From: Sinimarinibacterium flocculans
GTDB lineage: Bacteria; Pseudomonadota; Gammaproteobacteria; Nevskiales; Nevskiaceae
NCBI RefSeq assembly: GCF_003201205.1
Contig: NZ_QICN01000017.1
Location: 1-32,113 of the forward strand
Direction of reading: 5' to 3'
DNA: 32,113 nucleotides
Part shown: one piece after another, positions 1,893 to 28,925 of the stretch
Layout of the letters: each line of letters opens with the position of its first letter
How positions within the stretch are numbered: the first letter of the stretch is position 1
Program-made: the position numbers and the translations under genes
Notes under the pieces: generated by a model
Told to the model about the DNA's origin: nothing
The model's input: only the letters and a program-made list of their open reading frames with translations
Database searches by the model: none

Positions 1893-2537
1893 TCACTCCG
1901 CGTCCGATTGATTCGCTGGATGCGCATCCTGGAAAGCCTTCAGAGCGTTGCAGGCCTGCTCGATGCACCGCAGGGTCGGATAGGCGTCCAGCGACATGCC
2001 GAAACGCTCCGCATTGAACAGTTGGGGCACCAGGCAACAGTCCGCCAGGGTCGGTCGATCGCCGAAGCAAAATGCTCCGCGGCGCGGCGATGTGGCCAGC
2101 CTGCTCTCCAGCGCTTGCAGCCCGAGATCGATCCAGTGGCGTATCCAGGTCTGCTTCTGCTCCTCCGACAGGCCCATCGGTCCGGTCAAGTACTTCAGGA
2201 CGCGCAGATTGTTTAGCGGGTGGATGTCGCAGGCGACGGCCAGCGCGATCTGCCGGACCCAGGCGCGGTCCGCGGCGGCGGCTGGCAGCAATGACGGTTC
2301 AGGATGGCGCTCATCGAGGTACTCGATGATTGCCAACGACTGCGCGATGCGCTCGCCACTATCCTCCAGCACCGGTACCAGCGCCGCGGGGTTGGTGGCA
2401 CGAAACTGCGCCCGGAACTGCTCGCCCCCATCGCGCGTCAGATGCACTGGCAGGTGTTCGGCGCGCAGGCCTTTGAGGTTCAGCGCAATGCGGACACGGT
2501 AGGAGGCGGAACTGCGGTAGTAGGTGTGGAGTTTCAT
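1893..2537 (-). CDS. nagL: Zeta-class GST, maleylpyruvate (maleylacetoacetate) isomerase
   Basis: This enzyme isomerises maleylpyruvate, the product of gentisate ring cleavage, to fumarylpyruvate using glutathione as cofactor in the cytoplasm. The 214-residue protein begins like MaiA/NagL proteins, with the zeta-class active-site motif SSASYRVRIALN at residues 9-20 followed by a thioredoxin-fold N-domain. The helical C-domain contains the GDRPTLADCCLVPQL signature. The length matches the family. Maleylacetoacetate isomerase is the same fold and cannot be told apart by sequence alone, but the gentisate dioxygenase and fumarylpyruvate hydrolase in the same operon favour maleylpyruvate. The ATG overlaps the stop of the transporter gene by 4 bases, and the gene is the last of the lower-pathway operon. 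Confidence 0.88.
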   Translation of the reverse strand: MKLHTYYRSSASYRVRIALNLKGLRAEHLPVHLTRDGGEQFRAQFRATNPAALVPVLEDSGERIAQSLAIIEYLDERHPEPSLLPAAAADRAWVRQIALAVACDIHPLNNLRVLKYLTGPMGLSEEQKQTWIRHWIDLGLQALESRLATSPRRGAFCFGDRPTLADCCLVPQLFNAERFGMSLDAYPTLRCIEQACNALKAFQDAHPANQSDAE

Positions 2538-3877
2538 AGAGGCAGGGTTCGGGGGACGTAGTCAGGATCCCGGGCACGCAGCCGCGCCAGGCCGAGGATC
2601 GCCGCGGCCGTGATCAGCGCCGGAATCGCGCAGGCCAGCACCAGCTGGTCCGGGGACCATCCCCAGCCCAGCAGCACGCCACCCAGCAGCGGACCGGTGA
2701 CCGAGCCTGTGCGGCCTATGCCCAGAGCCCAGCCCACACCGGTCGCGCGGATCGCAGTTGGATAGGTCTCGGCAGCCAGGGCGTTGAGGCAGAATTGCGC
2801 GCCGACCACGCCCGCTCCGGCCATGAAGATCGCCGGCATTGTTAGCCGCGGTACCGCGGTCACGTTGGCCAGCGCCGCCACGATGCCGCCGACCAGCACG
2901 AAGGCCGTTCCCAGGGTCCGGTAGGGCCCATAGCGTCGCACCAAGGCGGCCAACAGGATGCCACCGCCGATCCCGCCCAGGTTGAGCAGCGACGAGGCAA
3001 GGATCGCGAGGCTTAGCGAGTAGCCGGCGAGCGTCAGCAGGGTCGGCAGCCAGTTGACCATGAAGTACATGACGAGCAGATTCATGAAGAACGCGGTCCA
3101 TAGCAGCACGGTGACCTTCGTGCGGGAGCCGCGGAACAACTCGCGCAGCGGAAATCCCGGCTCTGGCGGTTCGCCGGCAGTGACGCTCCGCAGGTCATGA
3201 GGCCTGCGCGGGTCCAGCCGTTCCAGCACGCGCAGGAGTTCACGGCTACGCGCGCGCCGCAAAAGCAGGAACCCGGGCGACTCCGGCAGGCGCCAGGCCA
3301 GCACCAGCGCCAGCAGCAGCGGCGCAGCGCCACCCAGCAAGAAAAGCGACGGCCAGCCTAGGCTTGGAATCCACAGCGCGCTAAGCACGCCACCGAGGAT
3401 CGAGCCCAGCGGGAAGCCGCAGAACATCAGCGTCACCAGCATGGTACGCAGGCGCGCCGGGGCATACTCGGAGGTCAGCGCGATCAGGTTGGGCATCGCG
3501 CTGCCCAGGCCCAGCCCGGTCAACAGGCGCAAGGCGAGCAATTGACCGGGCGTCTGCGCCCAGGCCGTCGCCAATGCGAACGCCCCAAACAGCAAGGTCG
3601 AAACCACAATCGTCCACTTGCGCCCCCAACGGTCGGCCAGCGGCCCGCCGATCAGAGCACCGGCCATCAGGCCCAAGAGCCCGGCGCCGAACACCGGTCC
3701 CAACGCCGACGGCGCCATACCCCATTGCTCAGTAATCGCGGGCGCGACGTAGGCGATGACCTGGGTATCGAAGCCGTCGAGCAGGGCCACCAGAGCGCAC
3801 AGCGTCGCAACTTCGAACTGCAGGCGTCCCAGCGGGCGTGAGTCGATCAGCTCGGTGATCCGGAGCACACCGGTCAT
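2534..3877 (-). CDS. MFS aromatic acid:H+ symporter (AAHS family)
   Basis: This is a 447-residue inner-membrane transporter with about 12 hydrophobic segments. Two features place it in the aromatic acid:H+ symporter family with PcaK, BenK and GenK. DGFDTQ lies at residues 34-39 in the first membrane segment, where the family has an essential Asp, and GPLADRWGRKW occupies the loop between segments 2 and 3. The expected substrate is an aromatic carboxylate; its place between salicylate 5-hydroxylase and maleylpyruvate isomerase genes points to salicylate or gentisate uptake. It lies 7 bases after the hydroxylase small-subunit gene and overlaps the isomerase start by 4 bases, so the three are surely co-transcribed. 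The precise substrate is inference. Confidence 0.85.
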   Translation of the reverse strand: MTGVLRITELIDSRPLGRLQFEVATLCALVALLDGFDTQVIAYVAPAITEQWGMAPSALGPVFGAGLLGLMAGALIGGPLADRWGRKWTIVVSTLLFGAFALATAWAQTPGQLLALRLLTGLGLGSAMPNLIALTSEYAPARLRTMLVTLMFCGFPLGSILGGVLSALWIPSLGWPSLFLLGGAAPLLLALVLAWRLPESPGFLLLRRARSRELLRVLERLDPRRPHDLRSVTAGEPPEPGFPLRELFRGSRTKVTVLLWTAFFMNLLVMYFMVNWLPTLLTLAGYSLSLAILASSLLNLGGIGGGILLAALVRRYGPYRTLGTAFVLVGGIVAALANVTAVPRLTMPAIFMAGAGVVGAQFCLNALAAETYPTAIRATGVGWALGIGRTGSVTGPLLGGVLLGWGWSPDQLVLACAIPALITAAAILGLARLRARDPDYVPRTLPL

Positions 3878-3884
3878 GAATTTC

Positions 3885-4367
3885 CTAGATTGGGTAGATG
3901 ATCGCGTTGGGGATCATTTCGCTGTCGTAGATGCAGGACCGCGACGCGAACTTCAGCGCACCCTCCACCCTGACCACCTCGTCCAGGTAGCGGCCGACAT
4001 TGAACACCGTGCTGAGTTCCCCAAGCTTGGTGCGGAACACCGCGTAGTTCGCCTCCAGAAACCAGCGCCCGCCGTCCACCGACAGGACGCGCGGCAGGCT
4101 TACGACATGCCGCTGGTAGTAAGGATCATGGAACAGGGTCTCGCGGATTCCGTAGACGCGATCCTGCAGCATGCCCTTGCTATGGAAATGCAGCGTCGCC
4201 AGCGGCAGCCCACGCTCATGGTTTTCGCGCGGCTGCAGCTTGTAGATGCAATCCTCGGTGAAGAACTCGGGCCAGCGGTCCCAGTCGCCCGCATCGATGG
4301 CGGCCGTGTACTCTGCGTAGAGCTGCAGCAGTTCGGTGTAGGCCTGCGCTTCGAGTGCCTGATTCAT
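3885..4367 (-). CDS. nagH: Salicylate 5-hydroxylase small (beta) oxygenase subunit
   Basis: This is the 160-residue beta subunit of a Rieske non-heme iron oxygenase, with the SnoaL/NTF2-like fold. It should pair with the large subunit encoded immediately upstream to hydroxylate salicylate to gentisate. Family features are the N-terminal helix with FFTEDCIYKLQ, the ENHERGLPLATLHFHSKGML stretch shared with NagH-type subunits, and a C-terminal strand ending in IYDSEMIPNAIIYPI. It carries no cofactor ligands, as expected. Its ATG overlaps the large-subunit stop by 4 bases, indicating translational coupling. Other possible substrates are substituted salicylates or hydroxynaphthoates. Confidence 0.85.
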   Translation of the reverse strand: MNQALEAQAYTELLQLYAEYTAAIDAGDWDRWPEFFTEDCIYKLQPRENHERGLPLATLHFHSKGMLQDRVYGIRETLFHDPYYQRHVVSLPRVLSVDGGRWFLEANYAVFRTKLGELSTVFNVGRYLDEVVRVEGALKFASRSCIYDSEMIPNAIIYPI

Positions 4368-5626
4368 ACGCCCATCACCCGGCGCCAGTATTGGTACATG
4401 CCCCGGATCAGCGTCTCCGAGGCAATGTTGGTTGCCTCCTCACTGCCGTGCCCACCCATTTCCAGCAGGCATTGCTGGTCGGGCTTTTCCTGGAATCCCA
4501 TCTGCGAGAACTCGATGACCTCGCCGTCGTCCGCTGAGACATAGCCGGACGGGCCGAACAGGTTGGCCTGCAGCAGGCGGCGCTGGATCATCTCGTCGTT
4601 GTCGTCTTCGAAAGCGAAGTGCGTCCACACGAAATCGAAGACACCGGGCCCGCGCGGCTGGATGTGCCGCATCGATAGACTGTTGACCTGCTGCTGGATG
4701 ATCAGGCTCGGGAACAACGTCAACATCACCGCAGTCGGGCCCTTCCACCATTCCTCTGGCACGATGTCGAGCTGGCGCGGGTCACGCAGGCTCATGTCGG
4801 CCTTGTAGCTGGTCACGCCGGAGACGACGTCTCCGGCCGGCTTACCGACGCTGCGTACGCCGATCATCGCAGCGTGGCGCTTGTGCGCATCCATCTTCAG
4901 CGAGGTCTTGCTGTCGGCGCGCCACAGGCCGAAGGTCACGAACCAGCTGTGCAGCAGCCCCGGGTGATACGGATCCTTGATGTTTTCCTGCATCAGCTTC
5001 CAGTTTCCCGGGATACGCTGTCGGTTGTAGCCGAGAACCTTCAGCTTGCGGCCGTCGAAAACGCGGTCGAAGTAGGACAGGATCGTCGGACCGAGGTAGT
5101 CCTCGAGGGATTCCACGGAGTGGTCGAAGCTGGCAAACACCACGCCGCCGCGCACCGCGACCTTGAGCGAGGTCAGGCCGCGGCCCTCCATCTGGAAGTC
5201 CGCCGGCATGCCGCCGCTGAGCTGGCCGTCCTGGCGGATGCCGCGGCGATAGGGAATGCCGCGCAACTTTCCTTCCAGATCGTAGGCCCACTGGTGGTAG
5301 GGGCAGACGAACTCCTTGCGGTTGCCCTGGCGCTCGCGGCAGAACTGCGCGCCGCGATGGGCGCAGACGTTCTCCAGCACGCGCACGCTGCCGTCCTGCG
5401 CGCGCACCATGATCACCGAACGCTCGCCCACGGCCGAGCGGCGAAAGTCACCCGGGTTCGGAATCTCGGCTTCGAGGCCGATGTAGCACCAGTGGCCGGC
5501 GTAGTAGAAGCGCTCGAGTTCGCGGCGATAGGTGTCCGGATCGGTGTAGACCCAGTAGGGCACGCGGTGCACCCCGTCGCCCGGCCAACTGAGCGACGAA
5601 GGTAGCGTGATGGCGGTGTCGTTCAT
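4364..5626 (-). CDS. nagG: Salicylate 5-hydroxylase large (alpha) oxygenase subunit
   Basis: This is the catalytic subunit of a three-component Rieske oxygenase that converts salicylate to gentisate. Cys88-x-His90 (CAHRG) and Cys108-x2-His111 (CPYHQW) bind the [2Fe-2S] cluster. Asp218, His221 and His226 in ENIKDPYHPGLLH form the bridge and mononuclear iron site. The 420-residue length and overall pattern match NagG-type large subunits rather than the roughly 450-residue naphthalene dioxygenase type. A good ribosome binding site (AGGAGA) precedes the ATG. It sits 18 bases after the fumarylpyruvate hydrolase gene and overlaps nagH. Electrons should come through the ferredoxin at 11783 and the reductase at 7451. 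The exact hydroxylation substrate is inferred from the pathway context. Confidence 0.87.
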   Translation of the reverse strand: MNDTAITLPSSLSWPGDGVHRVPYWVYTDPDTYRRELERFYYAGHWCYIGLEAEIPNPGDFRRSAVGERSVIMVRAQDGSVRVLENVCAHRGAQFCRERQGNRKEFVCPYHQWAYDLEGKLRGIPYRRGIRQDGQLSGGMPADFQMEGRGLTSLKVAVRGGVVFASFDHSVESLEDYLGPTILSYFDRVFDGRKLKVLGYNRQRIPGNWKLMQENIKDPYHPGLLHSWFVTFGLWRADSKTSLKMDAHKRHAAMIGVRSVGKPAGDVVSGVTSYKADMSLRDPRQLDIVPEEWWKGPTAVMLTLFPSLIIQQQVNSLSMRHIQPRGPGVFDFVWTHFAFEDDNDEMIQRRLLQANLFGPSGYVSADDGEVIEFSQMGFQEKPDQQCLLEMGGHGSEEATNIASETLIRGMYQYWRRVMGV

Positions 5627-5644
5627 GGCGGTTCTCCTGTGCGC

Positions 5645-6340
5645 TCAGCTCGCCACGCGTACCTGGATTTCGCCTAGACCGTCGATCCGTCCCAGCATCA
5701 GGTCGCCGGCGACAACCGCGCCGACACCTTCCGGCGTGCCGGTCATGATCAGATCGCCCGGCTGCAGGGTCTCGAACTGCGACAAGAAGGCGATGCACTC
5801 CGGCACGCTCCAGATGAGCTTGGCGATGTCCGAAGCCTGGCGCGGCTGGCCATTGACAGCGAGCGATATGGAAGCGGATTTCGGATGGCCAACGTCGGCG
5901 ACCCGACGGATCGCTCCGATCGGTGCGGACTGCGAGAAGGATTTGCCGAACTCCCAGGGGCGACCCTTGTCGCGGGCTTCCAGTTGCAGGTCGCGGCGCG
6001 TCATGTCCAGGCCCACGGCGTAGCCGTAGACCAGCGATTCGGCCTCCGCCTGCGACACCGCCGTGCCCTGCCGGCCGATCGCCACCACCAGCTCGATCTC
6101 ATGGTGGAAATTGCCGGTCATCGGCGGATATGGAATCTCCGCGACCTGGCCGTTGACGGCCACGATCGCGGAGGCGGGTTTCATGAAGAAGAACGGCGGC
6201 TCGCGCTCGTCCTGCCCCATTTCACGGGCGTGGGCAGCATAGTTGCGGCCGACGCAGAAAATGCGATTGACCGGAAATTGTTCGTCGCTGCCGGCCACCG
6301 GCAGCACATAGCCCGGCGCGGGCGAAAAAGCGTACTTCAC
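5645..6340 (-). CDS. nagK: Fumarylpyruvate hydrolase (FAH family)
   Basis: This enzyme hydrolyses fumarylpyruvate to fumarate and pyruvate, the last dedicated step of the gentisate route. The 231-residue protein is a short FAH-fold enzyme: CVGRNYAAHAREMG near the N-terminus, the metal-binding HHEIELVVAIGR motif, KSFSQSAPIG, and the closing GDLIMTGTPEGVGAV. The frame is open to 6469, but I choose GTG at 6340 because GAGGAGAG lies 6 bases upstream and the resulting protein starts and ends like NagK. The gene follows gentisate dioxygenase by 50 bases and precedes nagG by 18. A second FAH-family gene is present at 14818-15684. Confidence 0.87.
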   Translation of the reverse strand: MKYAFSPAPGYVLPVAGSDEQFPVNRIFCVGRNYAAHAREMGQDEREPPFFFMKPASAIVAVNGQVAEIPYPPMTGNFHHEIELVVAIGRQGTAVSQAEAESLVYGYAVGLDMTRRDLQLEARDKGRPWEFGKSFSQSAPIGAIRRVADVGHPKSASISLAVNGQPRQASDIAKLIWSVPECIAFLSQFETLQPGDLIMTGTPEGVGAVVAGDLMLGRIDGLGEIQVRVAS

Positions 6341-6390
6341 CAAAACTCTCCTCGAGTGCTGTGAATCGGGTTGTGACCGTGGAAGGGCCA

Positions 6391-7440
6391 TCAGGCCTTC
6401 TGCTCGCGCCACAGACCCAGCAGTCGCTGGACCGGGCGGTCGGAATAGCTGAACAGGATGGTTTCGCAAGCCGCCTGGAGACGCAGTTCATTCCAGGACG
6501 GGACGACGAACACGTCGTTCTCGCCGAAACGCAGTTCGGTCTCGCCGATGCGCGCCACGCCGCCGCCCTGCAGGCAGACAAAGATGCTGCTGTCGGTACT
6601 GCGGCAACCACGGGTCTCGAAGCCGGCGGGCAGCAGTTGCGCCGCCGCGCCGATCGTCGGCATCGGCGAACCTCCGGTGGCCGGGTTGACGTAGCGCAGC
6701 TTGTAGCCGTGATGCGGGTCGATGTCGCCTGCGGCGATCCCACGCAGCGCCTCACGCGTCCGGGCGTAGGGATAGACGAAGACCTTGGTCGGATCCTGGC
6801 GCTGCGGCTCGAAATCCACCGGCAGCATGTTGTACCCGTAGCGCGCGAGTGCATCGCCCTCGCGCCGTGTCAACGCTTGCTCGTCCTGCTCGTTCTTTTC
6901 GGCGAAGCCGGCGTCGAGCAGTTGCACGATCGGGATATCGAGGCCATCGAGCCAGATCACCGGCTGCGTGCCGGAGTTTCCGTGATCGTGGAAGGTCCAG
7001 GCCGGCGTGATGATGAAATCGCCGCGGCGCATCGTCGTGCGCTCGCCATCGACCGCGGTGTAGGCGCCCTCGCCCTCCAGCACCAGGCGCAGCGCCGACT
7101 GCGTGTGGCGATGCGCCGGCGCGACTTCACCCGGCAGGATCAGCTGCAGGCCGGCATAGAGGCTCTGGGTGATGCGCGACTGCCCGCGCAGGCCGGGATT
7201 CTCCAGCACGAGCACGCGGCGCTCGGCCTCGTGCGCGCTGATCAACCCGCCGGCTTCAAGCAGGTAGGCGCGGGCCTGCTCGTAGCGCCACAGTGCCGCC
7301 TGTGCCGGGCTTCGCGGCGTCGGTGGCACCAGCGTACCGAGCACTTCCCAGAGCGGCGTGAGGTGGTGGCGGTCGATGCGCTCGTAGTACCGACGGCGGG
7401 CATCGAGGCCGGCGGAATCGATCATGGCAGCGGAGGTCAT
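6391..7440 (-). CDS. nagI: Gentisate 1,2-dioxygenase
   Basis: This Fe(II) ring-cleavage enzyme of the bicupin fold opens gentisate between C1 and C2 to maleylpyruvate. The 349-residue length is typical. The first cupin holds the metal histidines in APAHRHTQSALRLVLEG (His110, His112) and FHDHGN (His151/His153). The second cupin, with FVCLQGGGVARIG and FVVPSWNELRL, is degenerate, as usual in the family. I choose ATG at 7440; the frame is open upstream to 7578, but that extension overlaps the reductase gene. Close relatives cleave salicylate or 1-hydroxy-2-naphthoate directly, and this cannot be excluded from sequence. The neighbouring nagL and nagK genes make gentisate the best substrate. Confidence 0.88.
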   Translation of the reverse strand: MTSAAMIDSAGLDARRRYYERIDRHHLTPLWEVLGTLVPPTPRSPAQAALWRYEQARAYLLEAGGLISAHEAERRVLVLENPGLRGQSRITQSLYAGLQLILPGEVAPAHRHTQSALRLVLEGEGAYTAVDGERTTMRRGDFIITPAWTFHDHGNSGTQPVIWLDGLDIPIVQLLDAGFAEKNEQDEQALTRREGDALARYGYNMLPVDFEPQRQDPTKVFVYPYARTREALRGIAAGDIDPHHGYKLRYVNPATGGSPMPTIGAAAQLLPAGFETRGCRSTDSSIFVCLQGGGVARIGETELRFGENDVFVVPSWNELRLQAACETILFSYSDRPVQRLLGLWREQKA

Positions 7441-7450
7441 GGCAGCCTGG

Positions 7451-8434
7451 TTAGTTCCCGGTGATGTGAAAGGGTTCGGCGTAGATGCTCGGTTCCGCCA
7501 TCTGCTTCTCACGCAGCGTGCGCACCGTCGCCTCCACCGCGTGCGGCGATCCGAAGACGTAGCCACGCCAGCCCGCAAGGCTGGGGAAGTCCGCCGCGAT
7601 CACGCTCGTCAGCAGGCCGCGCCTCATGCCACGGTCGATAGATCCGGCGGCGACCACGATGTGCGCACGCGCCGCCGGCAACTGCTCCAGGACCTGCGCC
7701 AGTTCGTCCTGGCCGTAGACATCCTCCCGACAGGTGAACCCCAGGTAGATCTGCAGCGGATTCTTCATGCCTGCGGCGGCAATGCCGCGCAGAATCGACA
7801 GCGTCGGCGCGAGGCCGGTGCCGGCACCGACACAGAGAATGGGATCTTCGTTGCGCGATCGCAGGAAGGTGATCCCCAGGGGCCCACGCAACTTGAGCAT
7901 GTCGCCGGGCTTGAGCTCTCCGGAAAGGCGGGCGGAAGCACGGCCGCCTGGATGGAGACGCACGTGAAACTCCAGTTCGTTGCCCGGCAACCCGCACATC
8001 GAATACGGACGCGCAAGGCCGCGCTCGAATTCCAGCTCGACGTACTGTCCCGGGGAAAATGACAGCGGCGACTGTGGCCGGACCCTCAACCGCAGGGTGT
8101 CGCGGCACAGCGGCGCCACCGCCACCACCTCGGCCTTCATCGTGCGCGCCGGATGAACTACCACATCTTCCGGCGCAGGAATCTCGATCACACAGTCTTC
8201 GGTCAGCACGCTCTGGCAGGCCAGCACGCAGGACGATCCCGGAACAGACGATGGCCGCATCTGCCGCGCCGGCCCCACGACCTTGCCGTGCAGAAGCCGG
8301 CAGCGACAAACGCCGCAGCGTCCGTCCTTGCAGCTGTGCGAGATAGGAACCTGGTTGCCCAATAGCGCGTCCAGCAGGGTCTCCCCCGCCTGTACTTCCA
8401 GGACACGCCCGCTGGGTCGCACCACCAGTTCCAC
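7451..8434 (-). CDS. nagAa: Ferredoxin reductase of the oxygenase system (NagAa type)
   Basis: This NADH-dependent flavoprotein passes electrons to the Rieske ferredoxin. Domains in order are a plant-type [2Fe-2S] domain (Cys35, Cys40, Cys43, Cys73), an FAD domain with RPYSMCGLP, and an NAD domain with CVGAGTGLAPTLSIL. I choose GTG at 8434, giving 327 residues (NagAa is about 328). GAGGAGAG lies 5 bases upstream, and the predicted transcription start (near 8458) falls below the alternative ATG at 8461. It is the first gene of the lower-pathway operon. In Ralstonia U2 the homologous reductase serves both naphthalene dioxygenase and salicylate 5-hydroxylase. A second reductase lies at 13735-14757. 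Confidence 0.87.
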   Translation of the reverse strand: MELVVRPSGRVLEVQAGETLLDALLGNQVPISHSCKDGRCGVCRCRLLHGKVVGPARQMRPSSVPGSSCVLACQSVLTEDCVIEIPAPEDVVVHPARTMKAEVVAVAPLCRDTLRLRVRPQSPLSFSPGQYVELEFERGLARPYSMCGLPGNELEFHVRLHPGGRASARLSGELKPGDMLKLRGPLGITFLRSRNEDPILCVGAGTGLAPTLSILRGIAAAGMKNPLQIYLGFTCREDVYGQDELAQVLEQLPAARAHIVVAAGSIDRGMRRGLLTSVIAADFPSLAGWRGYVFGSPHAVEATVRTLREKQMAEPSIYAEPFHITGN

Positions 8435-8464
8435 CCTCGCTCTCCTCTGATCCACTTTCATTGC

Positions 8465-8530
8465 AGAATCGGAGATGCTCCACCATAAGTAAATCGTATG
8501 GGGTGAATGATGCAGTTCACTCTCGTGAAT
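8465..8530 (-). promoter_or_regulatory. LysR-activated promoter of the lower-pathway operon
   Basis: On the minus strand the box ATTCACGAGAGTGAA (8530-8516) is followed after 22 bases by TTTACT (8493-8488), then after 17 bases by GATTCT (8470-8465). The box is close to the NahR consensus ATTCACGCTNNTGAT. It is also an inverted repeat (TTCAC-TCTC-GTGAA on the plus strand), with a further GTGAA half-site at 8503-8507. Counting from the -10, the box would span about -72 to -58, a normal LysR activation position. The same layout occurs at 11668-11733 and 28776-28841. The divergent CoA-transferase gene may share the palindrome. Confidence 0.7.
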
Positions 8531-11782: not shown

Positions 11783-12103
11783 ATGACAAGAAAGATACGG
11801 CTTTGCAGCAGGGCCGATGTCCCCGCGAGCGGCATGATGCCACTGGACATCCCCGGCCTTCCGCCGCTTGCCGCGTTCGATGTCGGCGGCGAGATCTACG
11901 TCACCAGCAACGTCTGCACCCACAACGTCGCCTTGCTGAGCGACGGCTTCTTCGAGGGCGACACCATCGAGTGCCCCCTCCACGGCGGCTGCTTCAACGT
12001 GAGAACCGGCGAGGCCACGCAGTTCCCCTGCGAAGTGCCGCTGCAGACCTTCCCGGTGATCGTCGAGGGCGACGATCTCTATACCGAAATCAAGGATCGC
12101 TGA
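11783..12103 (+). CDS. nagAb: Rieske-type ferredoxin of the oxygenase system
   Basis: This 106-residue soluble electron carrier links reductase to oxygenase. Its Rieske [2Fe-2S] ligands are Cys45-x-His47 (CTHN) and Cys64-x2-His67 (CPLHGG), with the GDTIECPLHGG and FNVRTGEAT stretches typical of bacterial ring-hydroxylating dioxygenase ferredoxins. NahAb/NagAb are about 104 residues. ATG 11783 is chosen because upstream in-frame sequence (open to 11642) crosses the promoter. It is the only Rieske ferredoxin in the window, so it probably serves both the naphthalene-type dioxygenase and salicylate 5-hydroxylase. The aldehyde dehydrogenase gene follows after 34 bases. Confidence 0.86.
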   Translation: MTRKIRLCSRADVPASGMMPLDIPGLPPLAAFDVGGEIYVTSNVCTHNVALLSDGFFEGDTIECPLHGGCFNVRTGEATQFPCEVPLQTFPVIVEGDDLYTEIKDR

Positions 12104-12137
12104 CGGACAAGCCGCCAGCCGAACGAGGAGACCACGA

Positions 12138-13664
12138 ATGACCAAGAGCGAACCCCGGAACCGCAGCGGCGATGCCGCCCAGGCAGCGAAGCACTTCCAG
12201 AAGGAGTATGGCCACTTCATCGGCGGCAAATGGGTCCAGGGTGCCAGCGGCGAGCGGATCCCGATGATCAACCCCGCCAACGGCCAGGTCCTGTCGCACA
12301 TCCAGTCCGGCAACGCCGAGGACGCGCGCCGTGCAGTCGACGCCGCCGCGCAAGCCTTTCCGGCCTGGTCGCAGACACCGCGCTCCGAGCGTCAGCGCAT
12401 CCTCTACGAGATGGCGCGCCGCCTACGCGTGCGCATGGCCGACTACGCAATGATGGATTGCCTGGACAACGGCAAACCCGCGATGGAAGCGATGCATTTC
12501 GACCTGCCGATGGCGATCGAACAGTTCGAGATATTCTCCGGAGCCCCTTGGTTCCTGCATGGCCAGTCGATCGACGCACCGAACACCCTGGGCATCGTGC
12601 TGCGCGAACCGCTGGGCGTCGTCGCGCAGATCATTCCGTGGAACGTTCCGCTGATCATGATGGCTGCGAAGCTGGCGCCGGCGCTGGCTGCTGGCAACAC
12701 CGTGGTGCTGAAGCCCTCCGAGATCGTCTGCCTGTCGGTGCTGGAGTTCTTCCGCGAGATGGCAGATCTTCTGCCGCCAGGCGTGGTCAACGTCGTCACC
12801 GGATATGGCCCCAGCGTCGGTGAGGCACTGGTGACGCACCCGAAGGTGCGCAAGGTCGCCTTCACCGGCTCCCGTCCGACGGCACAAAAGCTGATGCAGT
12901 ACGCCAGCGTCAACATCATTCCGCAGACCATGGAGTTGGGTGGCAAGTCCGCCAATATCGTCTGCGAGGATGCCGACCTGGATGCCGCCGCCGAGGGCGC
13001 GGCGATGTCGACCGTGCTCAACAAGGGCGAGGTCTGCCTGGCTGGTAGCCGCGTGTTCGTGCACGAAAAGGTCAAGGACGTGTTCCTCGACAAGTTCACT
13101 TCCCTGCTCAAGCGTGTAAAGGCAGGAGACCCGCGCGAGCCGACAACGCAGATCGGCCCGCAGGTCTCCAAAGCGCAGTACGACAAGATCATGGGCTATC
13201 TCGAACTCGGCCAGCAGGAAGGGGCCAAGCTCGCCGCCGGCGGTCGCAAGGCCACCCCGCCCGGATTCGAGGATGGTTTGTTCATCGAGCCCACAGTGTT
13301 CTTCGACGTCGACAACAGCATGCGCATCGCCCAGGAAGAAATCTTCGGGCCGGTCAGCTGTGTCATCGGCTTTCGTGACGACGACGAAGTCGTGCGCATG
13401 GCCAACGACTCGGTCTACGGCCTCGGCGGCGGCCTGTGGACCAAAGATCTCTCCCGTGCCCATCGTATTGCGCGGGCCCTGGAAACCGGCACGGTCTGGG
13501 TCAACCGCTATTACAACTTCCTCGGCGGCATGCCAATCGGCGGCTACAAGCAGAGCGGTTTCGGCCGCGAATTTGCCGCCGAGGTGATGAATCACTACAC
13601 GCTGACCAAGAGCGTGATCATCAACCTTGCAGAAGGTCCGATCGGCGTCTTCGGGCAGCAGTAA
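12138..13664 (+). CDS. nahF: NAD(P)+-dependent aldehyde dehydrogenase, probably salicylaldehyde dehydrogenase
   Basis: This 508-residue enzyme of the aldehyde dehydrogenase superfamily should oxidise salicylaldehyde, the product of the NahE-type aldolase, to salicylate. Visible elements are the cofactor region IIPWNVPLIMMAAKLAPALAAGN, KPSE (residues 192-195), FTGSRP, the general base Glu266 in MELGGK, the nucleophile Cys300 in KGEVCLAGSR, and the EEIFGPV motif. A strong GAGGAGA precedes the ATG. By sequence alone it looks like a generic betaine-aldehyde-type member, so the substrate is assigned from context: it lies in one unit with the ferredoxin, and no other aldehyde dehydrogenase is present. 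A strong terminator follows. Confidence 0.82.
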   Translation: MTKSEPRNRSGDAAQAAKHFQKEYGHFIGGKWVQGASGERIPMINPANGQVLSHIQSGNAEDARRAVDAAAQAFPAWSQTPRSERQRILYEMARRLRVRMADYAMMDCLDNGKPAMEAMHFDLPMAIEQFEIFSGAPWFLHGQSIDAPNTLGIVLREPLGVVAQIIPWNVPLIMMAAKLAPALAAGNTVVLKPSEIVCLSVLEFFREMADLLPPGVVNVVTGYGPSVGEALVTHPKVRKVAFTGSRPTAQKLMQYASVNIIPQTMELGGKSANIVCEDADLDAAAEGAAMSTVLNKGEVCLAGSRVFVHEKVKDVFLDKFTSLLKRVKAGDPREPTTQIGPQVSKAQYDKIMGYLELGQQEGAKLAAGGRKATPPGFEDGLFIEPTVFFDVDNSMRIAQEEIFGPVSCVIGFRDDDEVVRMANDSVYGLGGGLWTKDLSRAHRIARALETGTVWVNRYYNFLGGMPIGGYKQSGFGREFAAEVMNHYTLTKSVIINLAEGPIGVFGQQ

Positions 13665-13683
13665 GCCTCCCTTCTCCCCCATG

Positions 13684-13723
13684 GGCGGCCGCGCGCGCAG
13701 TGTCGACGCCGGCCGCCTTTTCT
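13684..13723 (+). terminator. Rho-independent terminator after the aldehyde dehydrogenase gene
   Basis: GGCGGCCG (13684-13691) and CGGCCGCC (13710-13717) form a perfect 8-bp GC stem with an 18-base loop, followed directly by TTTTCT (13718-13723). It lies 20 bases after the aldehyde dehydrogenase stop and 11 bases before the next ATG, so it should strongly limit read-through into the reductase gene. Confidence 0.7.
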
Positions 13724-13734
13724 ATTCCATACAC

Positions 13735-14757
13735 ATGGCCAGGCACCTGATTACCCTCGAAGCCAGCGGTCAGAGCTTTCCTTGCGATGCCGGAGATACG
13801 GTGCTGCGTGCCGCGCTGCGCGCCGGAATCGCCTTCCCCTACGAGTGCAGTTCCGGTGGCTGCGGCTCCTGCCAGTTCGAAAGGGTTTCCGGAGACCTCG
13901 AGGAATTGTGGCCTCAGGCCCCGGGCCTCACGCCACGGGCCCGCGAGCGCGGGCGGCAGTTGGCCTGCCAAACGGTCCCCAGGGGTGACTGCACACTGCG
14001 CGTCCGGCTCAAGCCGGACTGCCAGCCGTCGCTGCGACCCACGCGGCGGCGTGCCACCCTGGTGTCGAGAACGCGGCTGACTGCCGACATGGCCGAGTTC
14101 AGCTTCCGCGCAGGGGAGCCAGCGGACTTCCTGCCCGGCCAGTACGCCTTGCTGGACCTACCAGGCGTCGCCGGCGCCCGCGCCTACTCCATGTCGAACC
14201 TGCCGAACGACGAGGGCCTCTGGCAGTTCGTGATCAAGCAGATCGGTGCCGGTCGCGGTGGCATGGCCCTGTTCGAGTTCCTGCAGCCCGGCGACACGAT
14301 CGGTCTGGATGCCCCCTACGGCATGGCACACCTGCGCCTGGGCAATGACCGCGACATCGTCTGTGTCGGCGGCGGCTCGGGCATTTCGCCACTGCTGTCG
14401 ATCCTGGCCGCTGCGGCGCGCGCCCCGGAGCTGGCGTCACGGCGCCTGCTGCTGTTCTACGGTGGCCGTACGCCGGCAGACCTCTGCGCGCCAGCCCTGC
14501 TGGCGCGCGACGAGGCGCTGGCCAGAAGGGTCGAGTGCGTCACCGCGATCTCCGACCCAGCGTATGCCGGGGCCTGGGAGGGCCAGCGTGGCTTCGTGCA
14601 CCAGGTGCTGCAGGGCTGGCTGGAGTCGGCAGGCGATGCCAGCGGATACGACTACTACTTCTGCGGCCCGCCGCCGATGACGGACGCGCTGCAGCGACTA
14701 CTGATGCTGGAGAAGCGCGTGCCGACCGCGCAGCTGCACTTTGACCGCTTCGTCTGA
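13735..14757 (+). CDS. Second oxygenase-type ferredoxin reductase
   Basis: This 340-residue protein has the same layout as NagAa: a plant-type [2Fe-2S] domain (Cys38, Cys43, Cys46, Cys78), an FAD domain with RAYSMSNLP, and an NAD domain with CVGGGSGISPLLSIL and YFCGPPPM. It should take electrons from NADH for a ring-hydroxylating or other oxygenase. The frame is open from 13627, but that overlaps the aldehyde dehydrogenase and the terminator; ATG 13735 gives a normal N-terminus. No ribosome binding site is visible and the terminator ends only 11 bases upstream, so its expression signals are unclear. It is clearly diverged from the reductase at 7451-8434 and may serve the upper-pathway dioxygenase. 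Confidence 0.82.
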   Translation: MARHLITLEASGQSFPCDAGDTVLRAALRAGIAFPYECSSGGCGSCQFERVSGDLEELWPQAPGLTPRARERGRQLACQTVPRGDCTLRVRLKPDCQPSLRPTRRRATLVSRTRLTADMAEFSFRAGEPADFLPGQYALLDLPGVAGARAYSMSNLPNDEGLWQFVIKQIGAGRGGMALFEFLQPGDTIGLDAPYGMAHLRLGNDRDIVCVGGGSGISPLLSILAAAARAPELASRRLLLFYGGRTPADLCAPALLARDEALARRVECVTAISDPAYAGAWEGQRGFVHQVLQGWLESAGDASGYDYYFCGPPPMTDALQRLLMLEKRVPTAQLHFDRFV

Positions 14758-14817: not shown

Positions 14818-15684
14818 TCAGGCGTAGCGGTCCGCCACCTGGATGCTGAACCGGCCAATCTGCGCGATCTCCGCATCCACCCGGTCACCGGGCAGCAATG
14901 GCCCCACCCCTTCCGGCGTGCCCGTGAAAATCAGATCACCCGGATGGAGCGTGTAGAAGCTGGACGCATACTCGATCAGGCGCGGCACATCGTAAATCAG
15001 CTGCCGGGTATTGGCCGACTGCCGCAGCGCGTTGTTGACCCAGAGGCGCAGGTCCAATACCCCGGGATCCGGGATTTCGTCGCGCGTCACCAGCCAGGGC
15101 CCGCAGACCGCATAGGTGTCCGGCGACTTGCGAAAGCTCTGCAACTCGGGGCCTCGGATCGTGATGTCCAGACCGATGGCGTAGCCGGCGACGTAGTCCA
15201 GAGCCGCCTCACGGGACACCTGGTGGCAGCGTCGACCGATGACCACCGCCAGTTCCACCTCATGATCATTGCGGCGGTCGGGAAAGCGCAGGCGAATCTG
15301 TTCGGAGGGACCGATCAGCGCACTGCTGGCCTTCAGGAACAGCCCCCAGTCCGAGATGCTCCGGGTCATGTCACGCCCATGCGCGATCGCTGCGTCCCGG
15401 CTGGTCTCTTCGATGTGCGCCCTGTAGTTGATCGGCGCATTGACGATCTTGCCGGGATTGGCCACCGGGGAATCCATCGCCAGGCCATCCAGCGGCAGGC
15501 GCGGCGCGGTGGGCAGCAGCTCCGACACCCGCTCCAGCACGGCGTCGAGATTCAGAATCAGGGGATCGCCCTGTGCCAGCGGCCAGTGCTGCAGGGGAAT
15601 CACGGCCAGCGCCGGCGTCACGTCCAGCACCCCGTCTCCCACCAGAACTCCCAGGCAATTGCCGTTGAATCGACAGAGTTTCAT
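14818..15684 (-). CDS. FAH-family hydrolase/hydratase, last gene of the upper operon
   Basis: This 288-residue protein has an N-terminal FAH extension (MKLCRFNGNCLGVLVGDG) followed by the catalytic fold: NAPINYRAHIEE, KASSALIGP, the metal motif DHEVELAVVIGR, and GDLIFTGTPEGVGPL near the C-terminus. Members hydrolyse C-C bonds of acylpyruvates or act on 2-hydroxydienoates. It is longer than and different from the NagK-type enzyme at 5645-6340, so it is not a simple duplicate. Lying 15 bases after the GST gene at the end of the upper operon, it may act on a ring-cleavage product of an alternative or larger substrate, or back up fumarylpyruvate hydrolysis. The substrate is unknown. Confidence 0.8.
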   Translation of the reverse strand: MKLCRFNGNCLGVLVGDGVLDVTPALAVIPLQHWPLAQGDPLILNLDAVLERVSELLPTAPRLPLDGLAMDSPVANPGKIVNAPINYRAHIEETSRDAAIAHGRDMTRSISDWGLFLKASSALIGPSEQIRLRFPDRRNDHEVELAVVIGRRCHQVSREAALDYVAGYAIGLDITIRGPELQSFRKSPDTYAVCGPWLVTRDEIPDPGVLDLRLWVNNALRQSANTRQLIYDVPRLIEYASSFYTLHPGDLIFTGTPEGVGPLLPGDRVDAEIAQIGRFSIQVADRYA

Positions 15685-15699
15685 GCCATGCCCCGCCGC

Positions 15700-16320
15700 T
15701 CAGGCCATGTCCTTCAGCAAGCCCTCCGAGCGCAACGCGGCTTGCACCGCTGGGCGAGCGGCAATGCGCTGCTGGTACTCCCCGATCACCGGCCAGCGGC
15801 CAAGATCGAAGCCAATGAAAGCGCCCCATCCGTTGACCGTGAACAAGTAGGCGTCGGCGACCGTAAAGCGATCGCCGACGAGATAGGCACTGCCGCGCAA
15901 CTCGTCGGCCAGCCAGAGGTAGCGCCGCTCCAGCGCGGCGGTTGCAGCCTGGCGTTGTTCGGCGGTGCACGCAGGGTTGAACAACGGGCTGTACTGCTTG
16001 TGCAGTTCCGTGGAGATGAAGTTCAGCCAGGCCTGCAGCTGGTAGCGTTCGCGGCTGCCAACCGGCGGCGCCAGTCGCAGTTCCGGATTCTGGTCCGCGA
16101 CGTACTGCAGGATCGCCGGCCCTTCGGTCAGTACCGAGCCGTCGGCAAACTGCAGAGCCGGCACATAGCCCTTGGAATTGATCGAGAGGTAGTCGCCGCC
16201 GGAGGCGGTCCGGCGGTTGGCGAGGTCGACCTTCTCCAGTTCGAACGACAGGCCTGACTCGCGCAGGGCAATGTGCGGCGCCAGCGAGCAGGCGCCGGGA
16301 CTGTAGAACAGCTTCAACAT
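15700..16320 (-). CDS. Beta-class glutathione S-transferase (BphK-like)
   Basis: This 206-residue cytoplasmic GST starts with LFYSPGACSLAPHIALRE, the beta-class hallmark containing the active-site Cys (Cys11). It continues with GYVPALQFADGSVLTEGPAI in the thioredoxin fold and ends with the helical domain holding VGDRFTVADAYLFTV. BphK-type enzymes of this class are often found in biphenyl and PAH operons, where they may dehalogenate or detoxify ring-cleavage products; they are not essential for growth. It lies 23 bases after the dehydrogenase gene and 15 before the FAH-family gene. It differs in class from the zeta GST at 1893-2537, so the two should have different jobs. Confidence 0.86.
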   Translation of the reverse strand: MLKLFYSPGACSLAPHIALRESGLSFELEKVDLANRRTASGGDYLSINSKGYVPALQFADGSVLTEGPAILQYVADQNPELRLAPPVGSRERYQLQAWLNFISTELHKQYSPLFNPACTAEQRQAATAALERRYLWLADELRGSAYLVGDRFTVADAYLFTVNGWGAFIGFDLGRWPVIGEYQQRIAARPAVQAALRSEGLLKDMA

Positions 16321-16343
16321 GGTTTTTTCCCTATGTGATGGGG

Positions 16344-17159
16344 TTACAGGTTCTCGCCGCCGCAGACATTCATGATGCCGCGTACGCCAAACCCGCCGTC
16401 GCTGTTGATAACGACGCCGGTGATGGGCGCCGCGTTGTCGCGCGAGGCCAGCAGGACGTAGGGTCCGCAGGTCTGTGCCGTCGTCGGCGCCATGCGCAAC
16501 GGCGTGATACCGACGATCATCTGGTCGAAGTCGTCGATCTGATTGAGCGCTTGCTGCGCGGTGCCGGTCGCGGCCAGGCCGCTCAGGTTGGTGCGCAGGC
16601 CGCCGGGAGCGACGCCGTTGACGCGCACCTTTGGCGCCAGCTCATGCGCGAGCTGCCTGACCAGGCCTACCAGCGCATGCTTGGACGCGGTGTAGATCGG
16701 GCCGCCGCCGCCGGCGTAGAAGCCGGCATTGGAGATCGTGAAGATGATGCTGCCCCGAGTCTTCAGCAGCTCCGGCAGCGCGGCCCGGGCACCGAGCAGG
16801 CCGCCCTTGACGTTGACCGCGAACAGTTCATCGAAGGCTGCGGAGATCTTCTCCGGCTCCAGCTGCGGCAACGCCTGGAAAAAATCAAAGATACCGGCGT
16901 TGGCGATGAAAGTGTCCAGCCGGCCGAAGCGCGCGGTGGTCCGTTCCACCACGCGGGCATTGTCCGCCCAGGTGGCGACGTCACCCGTCACGACCTCGAC
17001 CTGATCGCCGAACTCGCGCCGCAGTTCGTCGCCGCGCTCGGCACTGCGCTCCAGCACGCCGATCTTCGCGCCCTCCTTGATGAAGCGCTCGACCAGGGCC
17101 CTGCCCAGGCCGGAACCGCCGCCGGTGACGATCGCCACATTGCCTTCAAGCCATCCCAT
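16344..17159 (-). CDS. nahB: cis-Dihydrodiol dehydrogenase (SDR family)
   Basis: This 271-residue short-chain dehydrogenase oxidises the cis-dihydrodiol made by the dioxygenase to a catechol-type diol, reducing NAD+. The Rossmann motif GGGSGLG lies at residues 13-19, NAG at 87-89, and the catalytic Ser143, Tyr156 and Lys160 in the YTASK context. Its opening (LEGNVAIVTGGGSGLGRALV) and size resemble BphB/NahB dehydrogenases. I choose ATG 17159, giving MGWLEG, because GGAG lies at suitable spacing; ATG 17174 is an alternative five codons upstream. It follows the dioxygenase beta-subunit gene directly, as expected for the second step of the upper pathway. Confidence 0.86.
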   Translation of the reverse strand: MGWLEGNVAIVTGGGSGLGRALVERFIKEGAKIGVLERSAERGDELRREFGDQVEVVTGDVATWADNARVVERTTARFGRLDTFIANAGIFDFFQALPQLEPEKISAAFDELFAVNVKGGLLGARAALPELLKTRGSIIFTISNAGFYAGGGGPIYTASKHALVGLVRQLAHELAPKVRVNGVAPGGLRTNLSGLAATGTAQQALNQIDDFDQMIVGITPLRMAPTTAQTCGPYVLLASRDNAAPITGVVINSDGGFGVRGIMNVCGGENL

Positions 17160-17189
17160 GCTTCGCTCCGCCATGTTGTTTCCCGCCCG

Positions 17190-17762
17190 TCAAAGGATCA
17201 TCACCAGGTTGCGGCCTGCCACCGAGCGCTCGTCGAAGTCGATGCGCCGCTGCACCAAGCGCAGCGTGCCGAAGGGGCAGCGCCGCAGGACGTCCTCCCG
17301 GCAGTACACGAACTGGTCGATCTCGTAGGCGCGGCGCGTGCGGACCGCCAGGCAATTGCTGCGCGCCGCGATCTCGCCGGCCTTGCCGGTCTCGAACACC
17401 TCGATGTTTGTCACCAGGCGCCGGTAGCGCTCCGGCGGATCGACGCGCCATTGCATGCCGCTGTGGAACTGTTCGACACGCGCCTTGAGGAAGTCATAGT
17501 CGTCGTCGTACATGAAGACTTCCGCTGGCTGTCCATAGCGCTTTTCCTTGCGGAAGCGCAGTTCCCTGCTCACCACCATGTAGCGGATCGTCGGATCCAC
17601 GATCTGCTCCAGCCAGTCGGACAGACGCTCGGTGTCGAGCAGCCGGGCCTCGCGGTACAACAGCCGCTCGGCCTCGCGCCAGATCGCGTCCGGCGCGTAC
17701 TGTTCCTGCGGCACAGATCCGGCCGGGTCTGGTTTCACCGCTAGCGTTGCATCGTTTGCCAT
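17190..17762 (-). CDS. nahAd: Aromatic ring-hydroxylating dioxygenase beta subunit (NahAd type)
   Basis: This 190-residue beta subunit has the NTF2-like fold and should form an alpha3-beta3 complex with the alpha subunit encoded just upstream. Features are an N-terminal region leading to EAERLLYREARLLDTERLSDW, VDPTIRYMVVSRELR, the central HSGMQWRVDPPERYRRLVTNI and a C-terminal LVQRRIDFDERSV. The length is close to NahAd (194). A GGAGA lies before the ATG, 16 bases after the alpha-subunit stop. It has no cofactor ligands, in keeping with a structural role. Confidence 0.88.
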   Translation of the reverse strand: MANDATLAVKPDPAGSVPQEQYAPDAIWREAERLLYREARLLDTERLSDWLEQIVDPTIRYMVVSRELRFRKEKRYGQPAEVFMYDDDYDFLKARVEQFHSGMQWRVDPPERYRRLVTNIEVFETGKAGEIAARSNCLAVRTRRAYEIDQFVYCREDVLRRCPFGTLRLVQRRIDFDERSVAGRNLVMIL

Positions 17763-17778
17763 GTTGGGTCTCCGGGGT

Positions 17779-19146
17779 TCAGGCCGCTGCCGCGACGGAA
17801 GCCGGCTCGGACCCCGCCTCGATCAGCTGCCGCTTCCACTGCGAGTCGTTGGGATCCATGTCGTGCCAGCTCTTCGCCGACATCACTTCCTGGTAGAAGC
17901 GGAAGTAGCCGCGGTAGGAGGTCTCGCCGATGGCCGACTCGCCGACCACGCCCGGCAGTTCCGGGTCCTCGCGGTCGCCGCCGATGCCCATTTGCGCGTT
18001 CATGAAGCCTTGGCGCGTGACATAGCCACGTGACAGCTGGCTTTCCGATTCCATGTTGTCGTTGTCGTCCGCTTCCCAGTAGCCCGCCACGCCGAAGGTG
18101 CGGTGCATGGAGTTGGCGATGCGCTGCTTGAGCTCCGCGGGCATGTCCTTCTCCACGATCGCCCAGGTGAAGCACTCGGTGCGATCGGGCCCGTGCGGCT
18201 GCCAGACCTTGAACAGGTTGGATCCCCAGAGGTAGGTATTGTTGGGAAATATCGAGCCATTGATGTGCGAACCGTAGTAGCGCGCACGCAGGGCGCCCAC
18301 CGCTTTCTCGATCCCGGGGCGCTTGCGGGCCTGCCAGGCGAGCAGGTCGGCGGCCAGCTTGCCGTCGTGCGCGCCCGGGGCGACGTCGTAGAGGATGCCC
18401 AGGCCATGGCCGTAGCGCGTTGCCACCTGCAGGCCGGCGCCCTCCGGCGGCAGACCCGCGTTGCCGGCCATCGGCGCCAGCATGCCGCCACCAGCCTTCA
18501 GCGCGGCGGCGTGGGTCCAGCCGACGTGATAGGCATCGCCCACGAAGTTCTCGCTCGGCGCCTTCCAGTTGCAATGCACCATCGAGCGCCCGGGCGGTCC
18601 GATCAGCTCGACGCCGCCGCTGGCCTCCATCCAGATATCCAGGTACCAGCGCGCATCCCCCAGGTAATCCTCCAGGCTCGGCGCGGCCGCATCGAAGCAG
18701 CCGTAGACGAAGCCGTGATAGCTCTTGACCTTGGCGACCTCGCGCAGGCCATGCGTGGACTTGTCCAGGCGCCCCTTGTACAGCTCTTTCTCGAACGGCA
18801 CGGACTGCAGCGAACCATCCGATCCGTAGGACCAGCCGTGGTAGTTGCAGACGAAGCCGCGCGAGTTGCCCGCCTCGACCGGGCACAGGCGCGCGCCACG
18901 ATGACGGCAGACGTTGAGGAAGGCCTTGATGCCCCGATCCTTCTGTCGCACGACGATGACCTCGTCCTGTCCCATGCGTGCGGTGACGAAGTCGCCCGGA
19001 TTCGGGATCGCGCTCTCATGCGTCAGGAACAGCCAGCAGCGCGCGAAAATCTGTGCCATCTCCTGCTCGTAGATGTCGCGATCATGGTAGATGCGCGCGC
19101 TCTGCAGGCCGTTCCGCACATCGATCAAGGTATTGATGGAACTCAT
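17779..19146 (-). CDS. nahAc: Naphthalene/PAH dioxygenase alpha subunit (NahAc type)
   Basis: This 455-residue catalytic subunit should add O2 to a fused-ring hydrocarbon to give a cis-dihydrodiol. Rieske ligands are Cys80-x-His82 (CRHRG) and Cys100-x2-His103 (CNYHGW). The mononuclear iron site is Asp204, His207 and His212 in ENFVGDAYHVGWTHA, a stretch I recall as identical in NahAc, with Asp361 as third iron ligand. Phe351 matches the position of Phe352, which sets regioselectivity in naphthalene dioxygenase. I choose ATG 19146, with AGGAGA upstream, over an in-frame extension to 19230. Its ATG overlaps the isomerase stop by 4 bases. Group membership is clear; whether naphthalene, a methylnaphthalene or a three-ring compound is preferred is not. 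Confidence 0.9.
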   Translation of the reverse strand: MSSINTLIDVRNGLQSARIYHDRDIYEQEMAQIFARCWLFLTHESAIPNPGDFVTARMGQDEVIVVRQKDRGIKAFLNVCRHRGARLCPVEAGNSRGFVCNYHGWSYGSDGSLQSVPFEKELYKGRLDKSTHGLREVAKVKSYHGFVYGCFDAAAPSLEDYLGDARWYLDIWMEASGGVELIGPPGRSMVHCNWKAPSENFVGDAYHVGWTHAAALKAGGGMLAPMAGNAGLPPEGAGLQVATRYGHGLGILYDVAPGAHDGKLAADLLAWQARKRPGIEKAVGALRARYYGSHINGSIFPNNTYLWGSNLFKVWQPHGPDRTECFTWAIVEKDMPAELKQRIANSMHRTFGVAGYWEADDNDNMESESQLSRGYVTRQGFMNAQMGIGGDREDPELPGVVGESAIGETSYRGYFRFYQEVMSAKSWHDMDPNDSQWKRQLIEAGSEPASVAAAA

Positions 19147-19766: not shown

Positions 19767-19774
19767 GGGCACGC

Positions 19775-20602: not shown

Positions 20603-20626
20603 TTCTATCTCCTTCGTAGGTCGGCC

Positions 20627-20887: not shown

Positions 20888-20888
20888 G

Positions 20889-23194: not shown

Positions 23195-23231
23195 CTTGGA
23201 TTCCTCTCTGGGGTTTCTGAGCAGGGCCGGA

Positions 23232-25307: not shown

Positions 25308-25336
25308 CTGACTCACTCCTCTCATTTAGTCTCTGG

Positions 25337-28841: not shown

Positions 28842-28925
28842 AACCCGAAAAACCGCATGCCCTTCCGGCGTAGCCAGGGAATGCTGACGGGATGAGGGCG
28901 GCAGCGATCCGAGGAGGATCACCCA

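Follow-up and report, generated by a model that had tools for sequence, protein, structure and literature searches.

Three promoters of NahR-type layout probably place naphthalene and gentisate genes of Sinimarinibacterium flocculans under one LysR-type regulator

Genes and promoter sites of the locus

The window (the whole stretch of DNA analysed, 32,113 nucleotides of Sinimarinibacterium flocculans) contains a gene for a LysR-type regulator, a CaiB/HMG-CoA-lyase-like (CaiB/HMGL) gene pair, and three runs of closely spaced genes, each of which is preceded by a 66-bp site, named P8530, P11668, or P28841 (Table 1). All three sites have the same layout: that is, a 15-bp box, 22 bp, a −35 element, 17 bp, and a −10 element (15-22-6-17-6). 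An earlier, sequence-only reading of the window had claimed this layout at three places, and we find it there, at exactly the coordinates and on the strands given in Table 1. The −10 hexamers of the three sites match TATAAT at only three of six positions. The predicted starts give leaders of 24, 43, and 32 nt for P8530, P11668, and P28841, respectively, which end at GTG 8434, ATG 11783, and ATG 28737.

Table 1. Positions of the promoter sites, the regulator gene, and the gene units in the window
Feature	Position	Strand	Description
P8530	8465..8530	minus	box 8516-8530 ATTCACGAGAGTGAA; CATT half-site 8506-8509; −35 TTTACT 8488-8493; −10 GATTCT 8465-8470; predicted +1 8458
P11668	11668..11733	plus	box 11668-11682 ATTCAGTGGAGTGAT; CATT half-site 11689-11692; −35 TTGAAT 11705-11710; −10 GATCCT 11728-11733; predicted +1 11740
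P28841	28776..28841	minus	box 28827-28841 ATTCATCTGAGTGAT; CATT half-site 28817-28820; −35 TTCACT 28799-28804; −10 GATTCT 28776-28781; predicted +1 28769
P8530 unit, 7 genes	1893..8434	minus	reductase, gentisate 1,2-dioxygenase, FAH-family hydrolase, salicylate 5-hydroxylase large and small subunits, MFS transporter, GST
CaiB-type CoA-transferase	8589-9797	plus	between LysR gene and gentisate operon
HMG-CoA-lyase-like protein	9794-10735	plus	between LysR gene and gentisate operon
LysR regulator, NahR/NagR/DntR-like, 301 aa	10725..11630	minus	assigned by domain and structure-database matches and by identity to relatives
P11668 unit, 3 genes	11783..14757	plus	Rieske ferredoxin, aldehyde dehydrogenase, 2Fe-2S/FAD reductase
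P28841 unit, 13 genes	14818..28737	minus	YCF48/BNR, MMPL transporter, DUF1302, DUF1329, hydratase-aldolase, LigA-like, LigB, DSBA-type isomerase, naphthalene-dioxygenase-like alpha and beta, SDR, GST, FAH-family hydrolase

From the small gaps between genes, we infer that each of the three runs is one operon. In the P8530 unit, whose reductase was scanned as 7451-8437 with its start taken as the GTG at 8434, the gentisate 1,2-dioxygenase scores over its NCBIfam cut-off, the salicylate 5-hydroxylase large subunit matches PDB 7c8z with 708 bits, the GST, of maleylacetoacetate-isomerase type, is above its cut-off, and the MFS transporter, of aromatic-acid type, is below its NCBIfam cut-off. In the P28841 unit, the hydratase-aldolase matches PDB 6dao with 502 bits, the naphthalene-dioxygenase-like alpha subunit matches PDB 1eg9 with 567 bits, and the LigA-like protein is below its Pfam cut-off. 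Judged by sequence kinship only, the target genes would encode naphthalene-to-salicylate and salicylate-to-gentisate enzymes: that is, enzymes that make and consume salicylate. The order naphthalene, salicylate, gentisate follows from established knowledge of these enzyme families. Of the 30 proteins of the window that were scanned, just one is a Rieske ferredoxin, and it is encoded in the P11668 unit; therefore both oxygenases probably need P11668 to be on, which provides a reason for a shared switch.

Two further groups of genes stand out. The YCF48/BNR, MMPL, DUF1302, and DUF1329 genes (window 21881-28737) head the upper-pathway operon; DUF1302 and DUF1329 are named in work on an RND transporter for monoterpenes (PMC6394551). 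As for the CaiB/HMGL pair (8589-10735), our guess is that it handles citramalate or mesaconate from methylated gentisates. The model searches reported no further NahR-type promoter near this pair, and a mirrored promoter for the CaiB gene, reading off the P8530 box, was considered and rejected, inspection by eye showing no −35/−10 pair at the layout distance.

The regulator carries HTH_1 and LysR_substrate domains and, in a comparison with ten NahR/NagR-like proteins, shows 51-59% identity. Its best solved-structure matches, at about 400 bits and over the full length, are PDB 1uth, 1utb, 5ae4, and 5ae5, which are titled LysR-type regulatory protein and which we take to be DntR. Among the best 25 of 38 NCBIfam matches there is no NahR model, and the best model among these 25 is BsrA, far under its cut-off (220 of 480 bits). 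The regulator gene adjoins P11668 and is divergent from it, with 37 bp between the box, which begins at 11668, and the LysR start codon at 11630. A second LysR relative, 34% identical, is encoded elsewhere in the genome (G000:C10:141254-142129; L022).

The promoter layout inside and outside the window

The sequence-only reading had proposed a genome scan with the pattern. In such a scan of the source genome, which comprises 39 contigs and 4,401,070 bases, the three sites are the only matches of the full pattern, and its backward-read control has none; the box ATTCANNNGAGTGAW alone gives exactly the same three matches, and its control again none. A chance origin of the pattern had been called very unlikely, and this agrees with the 0 matches obtained in 100 dinucleotide-preserving shuffles of the window. 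Both the full pattern and the box pattern were derived from the sites themselves, and tests without window training were therefore added.

Two earlier statements about the box hold in part. The 15-bp consensus stands in its arms and fails in its inner GAG, which is common to the three window sites but variable at the third site in relatives, where the box centre is TCCCAG, TCCTAG, or TCTGAA; we therefore rejected ATTCANNNGAGTGAW as a definition of the box, the conserved part being ATTCA-N6-TGAW. The equation of the outer arms with the NahR consensus ATTCA-N6-TGAT is exact at P11668 and P28841 and breaks down at P8530, which has TGAA. The published NAH7 box centre, YGYTGR, is not kept in the window, where the boxes have CGAGAG, GTGGAG, and TCTGAG. 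It is likewise not kept at pBN2, AR20, and the Nevskia locus, and therefore it is not taken as defining the wider NahR/NagR family.

On plasmid NAH7, the nah and sal promoters have the same spacing as the window's three: ATTCACGCTGGTGAT, 22 bp, TTGACA, 17 bp, and CATCAT at the site before the naphthalene dioxygenase genes, and ATTCATGTTGATGAT, 22 bp, TTTATC, 17 bp, and TATCGT at the site before the salicylate hydroxylase gene. The NAH7 box is given as TATTCAyGyTGuTGAT, about 60 bp ahead of the start (PMC3901652, excerpt), and a box about 60 bp before the start is consistent with the predicted −10 elements at the three sites. The dnt, ntd, and nag promoters are described as identical from the NahR binding region through the −10 region (PMC3180648, excerpt). 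At 16 loci with a related LysR gene, an adjoining site with 11-15 of 16 layout letters is present in 12; in the remaining four (L011, L013, L019, and L030) the best sites have 9-10 layout letters, and second-best sites everywhere have 8-10. Among the eight box matches from the ten outside loci examined first, two (L014 32870 and L018 20000), which do not fit and fall within annotated genes, were left out, and L018, a near-duplicate of L029, was left out of site alignments A1 and A2. When sites are scored for summed resemblance to TTGACA/TATAAT at a 17-bp spacer, the highest score falls at a 22-bp gap, both for the six box-chosen outside sites (46/72, next 31) and for the window's three sites (21/36, next 16).

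With a weight matrix from 13 outside NahR/NagR-type promoters, six of them chosen by box alone and seven being the best layout fits beside the regulator, 11668, 8530, and 28841 rank first, second, and third of 64,096 window positions. The six box-chosen sites by themselves again give ranks 1, 2, and 3, with position 30171 (minus) almost tying with the third site (20.86 vs. 20.96); leave-one-out versions of this six-site matrix give the three sites ranks from 1 to 4, and a matrix from the two NAH7 promoters alone gives ranks 1, 3, and 7. To these we added two models: model R1, from 15 sites including the window's three, and the calibrated model R2, from 12 outside sites. Position 30171 was rejected as a fourth site: it falls within a Tn3 transposase gene, and neither R1 (E ≤ 1) nor R2 (E ≤ 10) reports it.

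In the window, R2 finds P11668 alone significant (E 1.3e-6). P8530 is the second match (E 0.65, not significant), and P28841 is the third (E 7.6, not significant, and matched over model positions 1-28 only), with a fourth match close behind at E 8.5. On the whole own genome, P11668 is the only match of R2, and R1 at E ≤ 10 gives just the three window sites. Within reach of these searches (R1 at E ≤ 10, or R2), whose first-look step may miss weak sites, we accordingly rejected additional targets in the rest of the genome. Since R2 is significant for P11668 only, we regard P11668 as secure by itself, and P8530 and P28841 as candidates that rest jointly on layout, conservation, and gene content.

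Applied to 85 genomes of the order (own genome included) at E ≤ 0.01, R2 gives 15 matches, spread over 13 genomes. P11668 and its counterparts account for seven of them, and an eighth seems, from its coordinates, to be training site L012. The other seven all lie between a LysR gene whose product is 53-59% identical to the window's and a divergent gene, which in six of the seven heads a cluster for gentisate dioxygenase, FAH-family hydrolase, and salicylate 5-hydroxylase. In the seventh (L070) the divergent gene encodes a reductase, and the site is 62/66 identical to that of L012; L070 is therefore not independent. The layout model picks out NahR-type promoters in other genomes of the order.

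Model R1 also reports sites at some distance from the regulator gene. On two plasmids there are further NahR-type sites beyond nahR (L029 17319-17382 and L018 22593-22656, plus strand); after the L029 site comes a gene for an FAD-dependent monooxygenase at 18518, with an IS5-like transposase gene between. On an Acidovorax plasmid (L019), a NahR-type site at 1496-1548 (plus) lies about 100 bp before a salicylate-5-hydroxylase-like operon, and a NahR-like regulator is encoded about 8 kb from that site.

Conservation and mutual likeness of the three sites

The three sites persist in six related genomes. The strict pattern is present in 7 of the 85 genomes of the order; all three sites are present by strict pattern in only the window's genome and G003, and the other five genomes keep the third site with a single mismatch, which lies in the box centre. 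We compared the element columns (the arms, −35, and −10 of the three promoters; 63 columns) with the remaining 135 promoter columns, that is, the spacers. Over all seven genomes, the window's among them, variation is seen in none of the 63 element columns and in 19 of the 135 spacer columns (Fisher p 4e-4). Two of the six relatives, G003 and G035, had come to light through the pattern, and such a choice is biased toward unvaried elements; for the window plus the four relatives found by LysR protein search, the counts are 0/63 vs. 13/135 (p 0.006). Both p values are, on related genomes, guides and not strict probabilities.

At the third promoter, conservation has a sharp edge. Its 66 bp are 91-100% identical among the seven genomes, whereas the 60 bp before it have diverged among G003, G035, and a near-identical group of four (G008, G039, G051, and G052); conservation therefore drops sharply at the box. 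The window's 60 bp are unlike those of all six relatives (z −0.6 to 0.8), and BLAST matches end, in six relatives, at 28843-28848, just beyond the third box. The unlikeness of the window's upstream DNA indicates that a rearrangement came within a few bases of the third box and left the box whole. A transposase-like frame at 28926, below its Pfam cut-off, lies in the window's unrelated DNA upstream of P28841. The idea that several genomes had recombined exactly at the third box was considered and rejected, since some relatives can be seen to have an upstream region in common, though a diverged one (z 6.0 for G003 and G035; z 9.8-12.8 for G035 and the group of four); for G003 and the group of four, z is −0.1 to −0.3.

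The ends of the homology bear on the block as a whole. Homology to relatives ends at 28843-28848 (six relatives) and at 1839-1875 (five relatives, without G035), and the 27-kb block between (window 1839-28848) looks like a movable unit. The transposase-like frames at 28926-30200 comprise one below its Pfam cut-off and one Tn3 DDE; a 100-aa open frame (30347-30649) without a Pfam match at E 0.001 lies between transposase-related frames. When the flank 28790-29520 was searched for at the DNA level, no second copy was found, the window itself being the only match.

The spacers of the three sites also share letters. The 22-bp spacer holds CATT at columns 22-25, and AT is present at columns 32-33 and 45-46, in all three window sites; when 15 sites are aligned, T24 never varies, and conservation reaches 90% or more at A23, A45, and T46. 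Columns 22-46 are where LysR-type activators usually make their second contact. Spacer agreement is 23/45 for P8530/P28841 (0 of 2,000 shuffles as high), 21/45 for P8530/P11668 (0.2% of shuffles as high), and 17/45 for P11668/P28841 (5.75% of shuffles as high). In the 60 bp upstream of the promoters, agreement is at chance level in all three pairs; in the 40 bp downstream, P11668 and P28841 agree at 18/40 (11 of 2,000 shuffles as high), and the other pairs are at chance level. The spacer and downstream agreement makes common descent of a promoter unit possible, and such descent could account for part of the likeness.

A putative salicylate-responsive regulon and its known relatives

We conclude that the three sites are very probably NahR/NagR-type activator-dependent promoters read by one NahR-like LysR protein, the product of 10725-11630. 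The sequence-only reading had tied the upper and lower pathways to this protein, and that tie draws support from the NAH7 geometry, the kinship of the regulator, the gene content, and the conservation of the sites. Protein binding, salicylate as inducer, the transcription starts, and the operons are predictions of this regulon. In the proposed mechanism, a regulator tetramer would sit on the ATTCA-N6-TGAW box, with its centre at about −65, and on half-sites between the box and the −35 element, CATT among them; salicylate, the product of the upper pathway, would shift the regulator; and sigma-70 RNA polymerase would then use the weak −35/−10 pair 22 bp downstream of the box. The three units would be switched on together: P28841 would serve the transport and naphthalene-to-salicylaldehyde genes, P11668 the ferredoxin/aldehyde dehydrogenase/reductase genes, and P8530 the genes leading from salicylate to central metabolism. 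The proposed tetramer and half-site working follows general knowledge of LysR activators.

A different inducer for the same regulon, for example a substituted salicylate or a hydroxynaphthoate, is unlikely, though it is the alternative to which we give most weight. Naphthalene-type oxygenases often accept several arenes, and residue 169 of the regulator is Q, vs. N in NahR (PMC3901652, excerpt) and H in DntR, where its change together with others broadened the inducer range (PMC3180648, excerpt). However, the gene set makes and consumes salicylate, and Q169 is also present in 4 of the 10 compared relatives (L012, L015, L017, and L027), three of which (L015, L017, and L027) are encoded beside salicylate-5-hydroxylase-like genes. 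Moreover, the regulator keeps the stretches TDIGE, TGHGE, and VPHF, which are presumably part of the ligand pocket.

Less likely again is a situation in which the LysR protein controls P11668 only, with P8530 and P28841 alike by descent or chance and constitutive or otherwise regulated. It would fit the finding of the outside-only model that P11668 alone is significant, and the more-than-chance resemblance of the P8530 and P28841 spacers. It fits poorly with the unvaried arms, −35, and −10 at three sites in seven genomes, and in five genomes when the pattern-found relatives are set aside, with the second and third ranks of P8530 and P28841 in the outside matrix, and with likeness only at chance level in the 60 bp upstream (the 18/40 agreement of P11668 and P28841 downstream notwithstanding). 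That the likeness is due to chance and has no function we consider extremely improbable: the pattern was indeed derived from the sites themselves, but the shuffled windows contain no match, the genome contains just these three, the sites are conserved in relatives, and all three stand before gene runs with leaders of 24-43 nt.

Building on the preferred reading, of three promoters under one NahR-like protein, we lean slightly toward a wider account. In it, the regulon of the NahR-type protein would span 23 genes and three promoters; the upper operon would begin with an envelope module of four genes (YCF48/BNR, MMPL transporter, DUF1302, and DUF1329) for hydrocarbon uptake or export, switched by salicylate along with degradation; and the regulator-adjacent promoter would have moved to the ferredoxin unit, while the gentisate and upper operons were given layout copies of their own. 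For the naphthalene/gentisate cluster of Solimonas, Hydrocarboniphaga, and their relatives, the regulon provides a clear, testable proposal, and it would place transport-like genes of uncertain role (DUF1302, DUF1329, MMPL, and YCF48) under a probable salicylate switch. It also indicates that the NahR promoter layout accompanies regulators that share only 51-59% identity with the NahR/NagR proteins used for comparison. Judged by titles and the starts of abstracts, we recognised no literature on this cluster.

The layout is the known NahR layout and is not particular to this cluster. As in the window, the NAH7 regulon has a LysR-type activator and, at both of its operons, an ATTCA-N6-TGAT box, 22 bp, a −35 element, 17 bp, and a −10 element, and its upper and lower pathways are under one regulator (PMC3901652, excerpt). 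NAH7 differs in having two such promoters rather than three and in its lower pathway, which proceeds through salicylate 1-hydroxylase and catechol 2,3-dioxygenase, whereas that of the window proceeds through salicylate 5-hydroxylase and gentisate. The NAH7 regulator is 51% identical to the window's, its gene being unannotated in the record and its C-terminus, as read, departing from the others. The DntR structures (PDB 1uth, 1utb, 5ae4, and 5ae5), the best structure matches, have H169 where the window's protein has Q169. NagR-type clusters on pNIN2 (Sphingobium sp. JS3065) and pBN2 (Paraburkholderia aromaticivorans), with regulators 58-59% identical, resemble the window in the salicylate 5-hydroxylase and gentisate route and in the promoter layout. 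There the regulator-adjacent promoter leads reductase/salicylate-5-hydroxylase/naphthalene-dioxygenase genes, whereas in the window it serves the ferredoxin/aldehyde dehydrogenase unit, a separate promoter 3 kb away serving the gentisate operon.

In the same bacterial family, six loci (L069 and L071-L075), with regulators 53-59% identical to the window's, likewise have a NahR-type promoter between the LysR gene and a divergent operon. Under stricter filters, one such promoter was reported in each of their stretches (8-12 kb) at E ≤ 0.01 and, unlike in the window, no separate match to upper-pathway proteins was seen in them. The regulator-beside-gentisate arrangement of these six outside R2 places is the plainer one; in the window, by contrast, the CaiB/HMGL pair lies between the LysR gene and the gentisate operon, which has its own promoter. 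What is particular to the window is that the system is split three ways, that envelope genes come first in the upper operon, and that a different gene follows the regulator-adjacent promoter.
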